This document shows positions 24,261-27,697 of a stretch of 64,000 nt of DNA, in pieces (positions within the stretch are counted from its first letter, which is position 1; each line of letters starts with the position of its first letter). The stretch is taken from the NCBI GenBank assembly GCA_028279515.1, contig JANQNQ010000008.1:496001-560000 (forward strand). The letters are read 5' to 3'. A model generated the notes under the pieces. It did not search any database. It worked only from the letters and a program-made list of their open reading frames with translations, and was not told the origin of the DNA. The translations under genes and the position numbers were made by a program. The DNA comes from Flavobacteriaceae bacterium (GTDB lineage: Bacteria > Bacteroidota > Bacteroidia > Flavobacteriales > Flavobacteriaceae).

Positions 24261-24427
24261 CTCCGTCTTTTGGTTCGGTTACGAACCAAAATCCACCTCC
24301 CTTTAAACAAAGGGAGGAGCTTTATATCGGGTTATGATTAACATCATCCAAGAATTTAGTTAACGTTGTATTTTTGGCTCCCCTCTTTGGTCAAAGAGGG
24401 GTGGTTCAGCTATGCTGAAGCGGGGAG
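24261..24427. repeat. Cluster of long hairpins, interspersed-repeat type
   Basis: Four inverted repeats follow each other: TTTTGGTTCG/CGAACCAAAA (24268-24291), CCTCCCTTT/AAAGGGAGG (24296-24317), CCCCTCTTTG/CAAAGAGGGG (24380-24401) and TTCAGC/GCTGAA (24405-24419). CTCCCC/GGGGAG (24378-24427) encloses the last two. The block is non-coding and looks like a REP or MITE-like intergenic element. The remainder of the 478-base gap is low-complexity T/G-rich sequence without genes. Confidence 0.6.
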
Positions 24428-24573: not shown

Positions 24574-24975
24574 TTAATACTTTGTACTCTGTACTCTACT
24601 CTCAAAAATTTTCAGGTACATGAACGAAGACATTTTACGAGCGCGTCGCTTGGCGGTTTGGGCATTATCTCCTGTAAATAAAGAATCGATGGTCTCGAAC
24701 CAAAGGTTGAGCCAAATCCCAAAGTGTTCTTGTTCGAGGGAATTATCAAAGGTTGCGTCTACTTTAGCATGTACTTCAAACGGATTGCCTTTATACTTGC
24801 GAACGAATAGGAGGTTGGTTTCCCAGAAATCAGTGAGTCGGTCGATATGGGCCGGCCAATCCGTGATCGTTTCGTTGAAGAAGGTGCCGATATCTTGATT
24901 GGCGCGCACTTTTTGGTAAAATGAAGTAACCAGGATTGCAATATCCTCTCGTGTAGTTATATCGTTCTTTTTCAT
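24574..24975 (-). CDS. Truncated haemoglobin, group III-like
   Basis: The 133-aa protein has the 2-on-2 globin layout. FYQKVRANQDIGTFFNETITDW carries the B-C-E region; HIDRLTDFWETNLLF lies before the F helix, with the proximal His probably in PFEVHAKVD; FGIWLNLWFETIDSLF is the G helix, and the H-helix tail is basic. Such proteins bind O2 or NO at a b-type haem in the cytoplasm. It is two bases after the small membrane gene and shares its FNR-like promoter, which places it in the nitric oxide response. Confidence 0.88.
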   Translation of the reverse strand: MKKNDITTREDIAILVTSFYQKVRANQDIGTFFNETITDWPAHIDRLTDFWETNLLFVRKYKGNPFEVHAKVDATFDNSLEQEHFGIWLNLWFETIDSLFTGDNAQTAKRRARKMSSFMYLKIFESRVQSTKY

Positions 24976-24977
24976 CC

Positions 24978-25259
24978 TTAAACTAGATTCAGAACGATAA
25001 CGATTAGACTTGTGAATACGCTCATCAGCAATATATTGAACATGATCTTAGCGCTCAATTGCGCCAATACGGCCCCGTTGAAGCTCATGCAAACGATGGT
25101 GATAAAAAAGAGTTGCGTCATTTGTGAGGCTTCTACACCATTCATCAGTAATAGCATTACTGCAACAGATCCTAAACAACTTTGTCCGATGATTGCCAAA
25201 GTGGCGTATCCCATAGCTCCTTTTTTGAATTCCTGCAGCATTGTATTGTATAGTTTCAT
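24978..25259 (-). CDS. Small membrane protein of the NO-response cluster
   Basis: The 93-aa protein has three predicted membrane helices (YATLAIIGQSCLGSVAVMLLL, LFFITIVCMSFNGAVLAQL, ILLMSVFTSLIVIVLNLV). No characterised family is recognised. Its start is 23 bases from a perfect TATCTTTG -7 box and its stop is two bases from the haemoglobin start, so it is the first gene of a two-gene NO-response transcript. Confidence 0.75.
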   Translation of the reverse strand: MKLYNTMLQEFKKGAMGYATLAIIGQSCLGSVAVMLLLMNGVEASQMTQLFFITIVCMSFNGAVLAQLSAKIMFNILLMSVFTSLIVIVLNLV

Positions 25260-25281: not shown

Positions 25282-25327
25282 CAAAGATATTTGACCGTGT
25301 ATCCACGATTTTATGATTGCAATCATA
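25282..25327 (-). promoter_or_regulatory. Promoter with FNR-like site before the membrane protein/haemoglobin genes
   Basis: The -7 box TATCTTTG (25282-25289) has no TTG at the usual distance. Instead a perfect 16-bp palindrome TATGATTGCAATCATA (25312-25327) is centred 37.5 bases upstream of the last base of the box, i.e. near -43 from the expected start. The core ATGAT-N4-ATCAT is one change per arm from the FNR box TTGAT-N4-ATCAA. The position is that of a class II activator. Confidence 0.75.
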
Positions 25328-25335
25328 TCAGAGAC

Positions 25336-26073
25336 CTATGCCAAGAGGTTTTCTTCTAGGGCAATGGCTTTTTTAAAGAGGATGTTGTTTTCAATGTGAA
25401 TGTGCAAATGCAAATCTTCTTCAAATTCTTTGAGCATCAGAAAGGTTACCTTGTAGGTGGTGCATGCATCTGACGGCGGAGTATAATCATCGGTCAACTT
25501 AGAAATTTCTGCGAAGGCATCACCTTCGAACACATGTTCTTCGTCCATTTGGGCAATGGGATTCTTGATCGTGCCAAATGGAGGAGGCGTTAAGGATTGC
25601 CCCTGTAGCTGTGCTGTGACCATTTTTCGAATGTATGGAAACAAGATGATCTCTTCCTTTTTCATGTGCTTGATAAGCTCATCACTGGCATTCTGAAAGA
25701 TAGTATTGACGGTAGTAAGCTCTGGATGCTGCTTGCCATGTACGGTTTCGATCTTGTTCAAATACGCTTTTAGTACCGGTACTTTCTTTTCCACATTACG
25801 ATGGTGCAGTTTTTCGACATGGTCTATAACGAGATCCAAAGGCCAATGGATATAGTCTGCATCTTTGGCAGCACCCTGAGTTTCTACGAGATTATTGAGT
25901 TCATAAAGTAGTTGGTCTTGTTTTCTAGGCGGAAGGCCTTCGTGCTCACAACTTTCTTGAATACTACGGCTACCGCCGCAGCAAAAATCGAGTCCGTATT
26001 TTTTAAATATTTCGGCTGTTTTATAGTTGGAAGCGACCACGTCACCTACAACGGTCTGTTCTTTGATCAACAT
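25336..26073 (-). CDS. ric: Iron-sulfur cluster repair di-iron protein (ScdA/DnrN/Ric)
   Basis: The 245-aa protein has the N-terminal ScdA domain with GLDFCCGG (residues ~28-35) and a C-terminal hemerythrin-like four-helix domain with iron-ligand candidates: HVEKLHHRNVEKK, KHMKKEEIILFPYI, DEEHVFEGD and HLHIHIENNILF. This is the family that repairs iron-sulfur clusters and di-iron centres damaged by nitric oxide or peroxide. It is preceded by its own FNR-like promoter and follows the Crp/Fnr gene by 85 bases. Confidence 0.93.
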   Translation of the reverse strand: MLIKEQTVVGDVVASNYKTAEIFKKYGLDFCCGGSRSIQESCEHEGLPPRKQDQLLYELNNLVETQGAAKDADYIHWPLDLVIDHVEKLHHRNVEKKVPVLKAYLNKIETVHGKQHPELTTVNTIFQNASDELIKHMKKEEIILFPYIRKMVTAQLQGQSLTPPPFGTIKNPIAQMDEEHVFEGDAFAEISKLTDDYTPPSDACTTYKVTFLMLKEFEEDLHLHIHIENNILFKKAIALEENLLA

Positions 26074-26098
26074 CGGTATGAGGTTTAAAATTATAGGA

Positions 26099-26144
26099 CA
26101 AAACTACGCTGCGCTGACTCTATTATTTTATGACCTGAATCATA
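26099..26144 (-). promoter_or_regulatory. Promoter with FNR-like site before the ric gene
   Basis: The -7 box TAGTTTTG (26099-26106) again lacks a -33 TTG. The imperfect palindrome TATGACCTGAATCATA (26129-26144) is centred 37.5 bases upstream of the last base of the box, exactly the geometry of the promoter at 25282-25327. One arm differs from the perfect copy by one base (read 5'-3' on the top strand: ATGAC/ATCAT). Confidence 0.72.
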
Positions 26145-26158
26145 CACGATGCTTGAAG

Positions 26159-26749
26159 CTATTGCAAGACGATCTTCCCTTTTTGAATATGTAGTATGCC
26201 AGAAGTTTCTAGTTTTTTGATGGCCCTGATCACGGTCTCAACGCGTAGCCCGGTGAGTTCGGCGATTTCGCGACGGGTCAGGTCCACGGTGGATCCTTGT
26301 GATAGACGGTCGGTGTTTTTGAGATAGTTGAGCAAGGTGGTGATGCGATGTTCGGGCGAGTACAATGATAGCTCTTGCAGGATCATCGCCTTGTAGTGCA
26401 ATTTGTGACTAAGCGCAGCCGACAGCTTTAAGTGAATCTCGGGATTTTCGCGCAGCAGATCCAGAAAACGATCTTTGGATAAACGAAATAATACCGAAGG
26501 TTTTGTGGCCATGCAACCTGCGGGATACGGAAAATCACCGATGATGGCAGGTTCGCCAAAGGATTGTCCGTCACCAAAGATTCCTTGTGTAAACTCTTTG
26601 CCTTCTTCAGAGAGGTTGTACATCTTAACTTCTCCGGCCTTCACTTGAAAATAATACCGACCTGCACTTTGCTGTTCGAAGAGCACCTCATTCTTTTCGT
26701 AGGTTACTTCTTGTGCTCCGTATGAGATCAAGATGTCTTCGGCGATCAT
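26159..26749 (-). CDS. Crp/Fnr-family transcriptional regulator
   Basis: The 196-aa protein has an N-terminal cyclic-nucleotide-binding fold (residues ~10-110; GEVKMYNLSEEGKEFTQGIF, FGEPAIIGDFPYPAG) and a C-terminal winged helix (TRREIAELTGLRVETVIRAIKKLE). The recognition helix VETxxR is the FNR type, which fits the ATGAY-N4-ATCAT sites at 25312 and 26129. The N-terminal cysteines of FNR are missing, as in DNR/NnrR regulators that sense NO through haem. Its start overlaps the upstream membrane gene by four bases. It most likely activates ric and the haemoglobin operon. Confidence 0.9.
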   Translation of the reverse strand: MIAEDILISYGAQEVTYEKNEVLFEQQSAGRYYFQVKAGEVKMYNLSEEGKEFTQGIFGDGQSFGEPAIIGDFPYPAGCMATKPSVLFRLSKDRFLDLLRENPEIHLKLSAALSHKLHYKAMILQELSLYSPEHRITTLLNYLKNTDRLSQGSTVDLTRREIAELTGLRVETVIRAIKKLETSGILHIQKGKIVLQ

Positions 26750-27174
26750 AGGACTCTTTTAAAAAGTTTCACCACAAAGGTAGCCAGCAGGGCTACTTTG
26801 GCAACTTCAAAAATGACATAGATAAGATGCAGCTTGGACGCTTCCACTTGTGTGCCTTCGATGATCTTTACGGCACGCTCATCCAAAGCCGGATGCAAAT
26901 AGAAGGTTTGTACAAGTAGCAATGCCAATGGAATAACGAAAAGTGTGTGCCATTTGCTAAACCCTTCCGCAGAAAAGAAAAGCTGAATCAATATGATGAG
27001 CGCAAAGAACAACTCGACCCTATTGAGTGCTTTGAAAACAAGGCGCCCTATACTGAGGCCGGTTTCTAGTGTGACACCTGGCGCTCTAAATTTTAACCAA
27101 GCTTCCATAAAACTAATGGCTAATACAAAGCCGATCCATAGTAAGGAAGCTGTGATGAGAATTGGATATTTCAT
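26746..27174 (-). CDS. Four-helix membrane protein in the NO-response operon
   Basis: The 142-aa protein has four predicted membrane helices (ILITASLLWIGFVLAISFM, VELFFALIILIQLFF, LFVIPLALLLVQTFYL, LIYVIFEVAKVALLATFVV). Histidines near the membrane boundaries (SKWHTLF, FYLHPAL, SKLHLIY) could in principle hold haem, but this is speculative. It lies between the Rrf2 regulator (10 bases) and the Crp/Fnr gene (4-base overlap). Confidence 0.75.
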   Translation of the reverse strand: MKYPILITASLLWIGFVLAISFMEAWLKFRAPGVTLETGLSIGRLVFKALNRVELFFALIILIQLFFSAEGFSKWHTLFVIPLALLLVQTFYLHPALDERAVKIIEGTQVEASKLHLIYVIFEVAKVALLATFVVKLFKRVL

Positions 27175-27184
27175 AGGCGTTTGT

Positions 27185-27619
27185 TTATCGTTTTAAGAAA
27201 GTGAGTCCGTCGTTTAGTTCATCGGCTACGGTATCTAAGGTGGTTTGGGTAAGTACCGTGGTCAATTGTGCCCTTATTTGCATAAAATCATTGTGAATAG
27301 GGCATGGGCGCTCTTCATCGCATTGATCTAAACCCAAGGTGCAGCCCGAAAAAAGACGGTCTCCGTCAATGGCTTCTACTACATCTTTTATATTGATTGT
27401 TGACAAACGGTCTTTTGATATCATAAAACCACCATAAGGACCTTTTAAGGAGTTTACAAGTTGTGCCTTGACCAATGCCTGAAGAATTTTCGCGGTAAAT
27501 GCGACTGGAGAATCGATAGCCTCGGCGATCTGTGTTAGACTAACACGCGTTTCGTCTTGAGATTTCTGAGCGACGAATAGCATGGCCTTGATGCCGTATG
27601 TGCAAGCTTTGGAAAACAT
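27185..27619 (-). CDS. Rrf2-family regulator, NsrR-like
   Basis: The 144-aa protein has an Rrf2 winged helix (SLTQIAEAIDSPVAFTAKILQALVKAQLV...GPYGGFMI) and a cluster-binding loop with three cysteines, CTLGLDQCDEERPC, at the position where NsrR and IscR hold an iron-sulfur cluster. Its place at the head of a cluster with Ric, a truncated haemoglobin and a Crp/Fnr protein supports an NO sensor. It is the first gene of the Rrf2-membrane-Crp transcript. Confidence 0.88.
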   Translation of the reverse strand: MFSKACTYGIKAMLFVAQKSQDETRVSLTQIAEAIDSPVAFTAKILQALVKAQLVNSLKGPYGGFMISKDRLSTINIKDVVEAIDGDRLFSGCTLGLDQCDEERPCPIHNDFMQIRAQLTTVLTQTTLDTVADELNDGLTFLKR

Positions 27620-27631: not shown

Positions 27632-27697
27632 GTGGATTCTTATTTAGGATAAAAATGTCCGAAATAAAAAATAATAACCTTGTACTTCTTTTTTAAA

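Follow-up and report, generated by a model that had tools for sequence, protein, structure and literature searches.

A Crp/Fnr-Family Regulator and Its Predicted Class II Operators in a NO-Response Gene Cluster of Flavobacteriaceae

Gene Cluster and Promoters

The window analysed here, a stretch of 64,000 nucleotides from a Flavobacteriaceae bacterium (contig JANQNQ010000008.1, positions 496,001 to 560,000), carries a cluster of six minus-strand genes: an Rrf2 regulator comes first, followed by a predicted membrane protein of 142 aa, a Crp/Fnr regulator, ric, MP93 and haemoglobin. The first gene (27185..27619) encodes an Rrf2-family regulator with three C-terminal cysteines, NsrR/IscR-like (Pfam Rrf2, 3.9e-26). 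The 142-aa predicted membrane protein (26746..27174) gave no match in family searches and by eye resembles proteins of two NO clusters (L290, L296). It is followed by the gene for a Crp/Fnr-family regulator of 196 aa (26159..26749; Pfam cNMP_binding, 7e-20, and HTH_Crp_2, 2.8e-9), hereafter the window Crp. The product of ric (25336..26073) is a ScdA/YtfE-type di-iron repair protein of the DFCCGG type (NCBIfam TIGR03652, an equivalog, 8.4e-68, above cut-off), and MP93 (24978..25259) is a predicted membrane protein of 93 aa that matches no known family. The last gene (24574..24975) encodes a Group III truncated haemoglobin (trHb); a Pfam search of this product gave no match, and its name rests on a phmmer match to a solved structure of that group (2ig3, 3.6e-12).

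Two promoters of this cluster share the same geometry. The putative operator of ric occupies 26129..26144 (centre 26136.5) and reads TATGATTCAGGTCATA towards ric, with T at position 7 and G at position 10; the -7 box of this promoter, TAGTTTTG, lies at 26106..26099 on the minus strand. The putative operator of the MP93-haemoglobin operon, TATGATTGCAATCATA (25312..25327, centre 25319.5), is a perfect palindrome, and its -7 box, TATCTTTG, lies at 25289..25282 on the minus strand. Both palindromes are of the type TATGAN6TCATA. According to the preliminary description, each is centred exactly 37.5 bases upstream of the final base of a perfect -7 box (TAnnTTTG), and we found both at these positions again, counted in either promoter from the last G of the box. 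As it had also stated, neither promoter has a -33 TTG, the 22-bp spacers being free of this triplet. In Flavobacterium psychrophilum the TAnnTTTG box covers -12 to -5 (PMC9723704), and by this mapping the window operators would be centred near -42.5, the class II position. A correction applies to the spacing: most often in the family it is shorter by one base than in the window, which would put the centres near -41.5.

The pattern ATGAN6TCAT-N23-TAnnTTTG was matched twice in the window and in none of 100 shuffles; the window holds no further pair with this spacing. The palindrome searched alone with at most one mismatch was not enriched there (48 matches versus 45 expected), indicating that the signal is the pairing of an operator with a -7 box. 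This genome has 11 exact 16-mers, and promoters of such geometry are found only at the two window sites; ric and the haemoglobin operon are, as predicted targets go, the only qualifying ones in this genome. Two other candidates were rejected. On the plus strand, at 24334-24376, ATGATTAACATCAT (at 24334) is followed at 21 bp by the -7-like TATTTTTG, but the pair faces no gene and was attributed to chance; the match at C9:62373 was set aside as asymmetric (TCTCAT).

The Crp/Fnr Protein

The window Crp belongs to the CRP/FNR superfamily: it combines a beta-roll of the cNMP-binding-like type with a C-terminal winged HTH, both Pfam domains scoring above cut-off. Its AlphaFold model (pLDDT 85.6) is matched by Foldseek to CRP structures with a probability of 1.00, and the solved structures closest to it in sequence include DNR (3dkw, 1.8e-15). 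The preliminary description had assigned it an FNR-type VETxxR helix and no cluster cysteines, and this reading is correct: the recognition helix is LRVETVIR, nearly invariant among orthologs, and the sole cysteine, Cys79, is not conserved.

The [4Fe-4S] cysteine motif of FNR proper is absent from the window Crp, which is distinct from the family's FNRs of the CxxC..C type. In an alignment to CRP made by eye, the positions of the cAMP-binding Arg82-Ser83 are occupied by Pro76-Ala77, which are at least 90% conserved in orthologs. Since the cysteine cluster is missing and Pro-Ala replaces Arg-Ser, sensing through an Fe-S cluster or cAMP is unlikely. Only Met43, His106 and His134 are near-invariant among possible haem ligands, a pattern that proves nothing on sensing. 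At the position of CRP E181 the protein has an invariant glutamate, and at that of R180 a valine; by published rules (PMC1274295), operators that lack the G of the CRP site are consistent with this valine.

Sites in Related Genomes

An ortholog of the window Crp was found in 32 of 149 genomes of the family, as a rule one per genome; a 33rd match of the ortholog search, in G126, is a receiver-Crp fusion (REC-Crp) and was left out. Of 30 loci with the ortholog, 26 have a perfect TATGAN6TCATA next to crp or to a linked target, mostly at the MP93-haemoglobin promoter. In G028 and G030 crp is located elsewhere in the genome, yet the haemoglobin promoter keeps the palindrome. No such site was found upstream of the haemoglobin gene in any of 34 genomes without the ortholog (Crp-), where the gene mostly has the same neighbours. 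In these 34 genomes the haemoglobin gene, which usually lies between ResB and a DUF2520-like gene (loci L134-L152, L153 and L154-L168), is kept without crp, MP93 or operator; besides the regulated copy of the window, the present genome has a second haemoglobin of this flanked type at C14:82157.

For the DFCCGG-type ric, Crp+ relatives add nine promoters with the site to that of the window, and in eight of the nine a -7-like box follows at a distance of 22 or 23 bp. The ric genes of three Crp+ genomes (G030, G049, G120) have no site, and no ric gene inside an Rrf2 operon bears one. The MP93-haemoglobin and ric promoters are joined in the family by those of the copper nitrite reductase NirK (G006, G027) and of flavohaemoglobin, Hmp (G033).

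An independent scan of named genomes with the Crp alignment returned at least 568 relatives, of which the best 80 loci, from Flavobacteriaceae, Prolixibacteraceae, Cytophagales and others, were examined. An intergenic perfect site occurs in 70 of these 80, in several Bacteroidota lineages, and among the MP93 promoters an (N)AnnTTTG-like box stands 22 or 23 bp from the site in 52 of 53 cases. In Prolixibacteraceae the gene divergent from crp encodes a further predicted target, a NorB-type NO reductase. Placement of the DNR/NnrR type is seen, at the level of sequence, for ric, trHb, Hmp, NirK and NorB, whose sites lie 22-23 bp from a -7 box.

Taken together, the same site at the same spacing next to NO genes in many Bacteroidota makes a recurrent regulon well supported as a prediction, and comparative genomics supports the earlier proposal that ric and the haemoglobin operon are targets of the window Crp through class II sites. 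The spacing also bears on whether the protein might instead be mainly a repressor, of crp or of the cluster, when NO is absent. At many divergent loci a palindrome does lie 22-26 bp upstream of crp, as such a role could explain; however, no fixed spacing is kept on the crp side, where 38 of 50 cases have no box, whereas on the target side many genera keep the -7 box at a distance of 22-23 bp, which is what class II activation would require, and the window promoters have no -33 elements. We regard mainly repressive action as most improbable.

Two Classes of Operator

The half-site pattern with its spacing is widespread, with about 737 matches in 130 of the 149 genomes of the family and few matches in controls. 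In the genome of the window it is also found before hemN, moeA, usp and a rhodanese/metallo-beta-lactamase gene, and nearly so before napA; the matches of the bare palindrome in this genome fall mostly within genes. The preliminary description had named the occurrence of this spaced motif at many genes unrelated to NO as grounds for refutation and, read literally, such occurrence is what we see; the sites at these genes, however, form a second class with different inner bases.

The number of motifs per genome follows the presence of REC-Crp (mean of 6.6 versus 3.5, p = 4e-7) and showed no link to the window Crp in the 149 genomes (p = 0.18). Those site-rich genomes that were checked and have no clear REC-Crp ortholog carry a CxxC..C FNR with the same recognition helix, TATESxIR, the counterpart of LRVETVIR. 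The general class of the motif is an anaerobic FNR-type regulon, and we provisionally assign its sites to the REC-Crp/FNR proteins, whose helix differs from that of the window Crp.

The two classes were compared at positions 7 and 10 of the operator, read towards the promoter. Of 31 crp-linked sites in the family, 29 carry T at position 7 and none carries T at position 10; the bases seen at position 7 in the window class are T and C. For the general class, 54 sites taken from the matches listed have A at position 7 in 41 cases and T at position 10 in 37. In the named loci, 68 crp-linked promoters chosen blind to the inner bases showed A at position 7 once and T at position 10 never. A spacing of 23 versus 22 bp had also been considered as a mark of the two regulators and was dropped, as the crp-linked promoters split into 26 and 26.

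Promoters with the T-class pattern occur in 22 of the 32 Crp+ genomes and in 8 of the 117 that are Crp- (p = 1.8e-12 by Fisher's test, a value that overstates independence because related species are counted separately); the eight Crp- genomes that carry such sites are a counterpoint to the assignment. We asked whether the window sites belong to the O2-responsive REC-Crp, ric and haemoglobin then being part of its anaerobic regulon together with hemN, nap, moeA and usp. Identical half-sites, near-identical spacing at the genes of that regulon and the motif counts given above agree with this. Nevertheless, the inner bases differ between the two classes, T-class sites track the window Crp, and the haemoglobin site is gone where this Crp is missing, even from genomes that keep REC-Crp, so that we consider such an origin of the sites very unlikely. 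As the half-sites of the two classes are identical, cross-binding between the regulators may be possible.

It is a tentative idea, and one we lean slightly against, that a cell would hold two Crp/Fnr activators with the same half-site and distance, insulated only by the inner bases (7T/10A versus 7A/10T). If so, a swap of two base pairs would separate the NO response from the O2 response, by indirect readout or a shifted contact; operator positions 7 and 10 are not known to be touched by the recognition helix.

REC-Crp, the receiver-Crp fusion, was seen in about half of the sampled genomes of the family. In this genome its gene (C8:169312-170361) lies beside a PAS histidine kinase and ccoN, followed by usp with an FNR-class site, and the PAS kinase/REC-Crp locus (L055, 5080-7365; G000:C8, about 163-174 kb) has a FixL/FixK-like arrangement. 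In the intergenic region between moeA and the napA operon of L032 (1996-2059), two FNR-class palindromes lie 50 bp apart, one facing each way.

Proposed Mechanism and Parallel Control by Rrf2

Our best explanation, which we hold to be highly probable on these comparative data, is that the window Crp would be a class II activator dedicated to the NO response, with an operator of its own. The protein would respond to NO or to a nitrosative signal, the probable sensor being bound haem or a different pocket ligand and not an Fe-S cluster or cAMP. Its dimer would bind operators of the type TATGAYTnnARTCATA, whose centres lie some 41.5-42.5 bp before the predicted start, where it may stand in for the missing -33 contact and recruit RNA polymerase to the TAnnTTTG box in a class II manner. 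Two promoters would be driven in this way in the present genome, those of ric and of MP93 with the truncated haemoglobin, and in relatives also those of flavohaemoglobin, nirK and norB. Separation from the O2-responsive REC-Crp/FNR activators, which share half-sites and spacing, would be achieved mainly through inner bases 7 and 10.

The cluster contains another regulator that may respond to NO. Just upstream of the window Rrf2 gene lies a candidate Rrf2 operator, GGATAAAAATGTCC (27647..27660; one match versus 0.04 expected). In relatives, Rrf2 orthologs head Rrf2-ric operons, and in 14 of 30 loci a palindrome like GGATAAAAATGTCC lies some 59 nt ahead of rrf2. The AAGATAAATTTGTCTT-like palindrome may be the operator of an NsrR-like repressor in flavobacteria, which suggests a second, parallel NO control. 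In loci L177-L210 such a palindrome precedes the Rrf2-ric operons by about 59 nt.

This arrangement leaves room for an NsrR-like Rrf2 as the real NO sensor, with the Crp answering another cue (low O2 or nitrite) and ric and haemoglobin being NO-regulated by it only indirectly. A three-cysteine Rrf2 heads the window cluster behind its candidate operator, most Crp- genomes that have ric carry Rrf2-ric operons with a similar palindrome, and the Crp has no identifiable site for an NO cofactor. On the other hand, throughout Bacteroidota the predicted targets of the Crp are genes of NO metabolism or defence (trHb, ric, Hmp, NirK and NorB), also at loci whose crp had no Rrf2 gene within 5 kb, and the ric genes that bear the Crp operator are mostly outside Rrf2 operons. 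We judge it unlikely, on balance, that Rrf2 is the real NO sensor in this sense, and retain the window Crp as the predicted activator of the NO response.

Comparison with Known Systems

In function, the window Crp appears by analogy to resemble NssR and DNR/NnrR. NssR of Campylobacter jejuni, a member of the Crp/Fnr family, activates a small nitrosative-stress regulon that includes the truncated haemoglobin Ctb (PMC4601167). The functional likeness lies in predicted positive regulation and in a truncated-haemoglobin target of the same group as Ctb; unlike NssR, the window Crp belongs to a different phylum, and the predicted targets of its group also include ric, NorB, NirK, Hmp and MP93. The operator and promoter type of NssR differ from those predicted for the window Crp as well. 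DNR of Pseudomonas aeruginosa and NnrR of alphaproteobacteria are likewise Crp/Fnr proteins without Fe-S cysteines, and activate nir and nor genes on NO. The DNR box is the FNR-like TTGATnnnnATCAA (PMC1274295), whereas the predicted half-site of the window Crp is TATGA with selected inner bases.

HcpR and HcpR2 (Bacteroides, Porphyromonas, Desulfovibrio) also provide a Crp/Fnr-type NO response, in part within Bacteroidota. HcpR2 recognises GTAACnnnnGTTAC and has Pro, Ser or Gln at position 181 (PMC1274295); the window Crp differs in its invariant Glu171 at the aligned residue and in its predicted TATGAN6TCATA operators. With the FNR/FixK-type O2 regulons, including those of REC-Crp and the CxxC FNR of the family, it shares the half-site spacing, the class II placement and an E..IR helix, but these regulators have inner bases 7A/10T, the TATESxIR helix and, here, hemN, nap and usp as targets, the FNR forms also having cluster cysteines.

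Our literature search returned no flavobacterial NO-responsive Crp, and NO regulation in Bacteroidota only as HcpR in Bacteroides and Porphyromonas; in Flavobacteriaceae and related, often marine, Bacteroidota this regulation appears little described. The present analysis yields a regulator group with a predicted operator, promoter position and set of targets, in a phylum whose promoters are unusual, and an NO regulon that may be told apart from an overlapping O2 regulon by two base positions.

MP93 is possibly an unrecognised component of NO or respiratory defence. Its gene was found in 30 of 32 Crp+ genomes versus 15 of 117 Crp- genomes, often adjoining ric, trHb or Crp. Besides the window (24978-25259), it recurs at 3262-3543 of L288, in L289 and in L293-L297, with ric, truncated haemoglobin and Crp as neighbours. 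A second copy in this genome adjoins cydAB.
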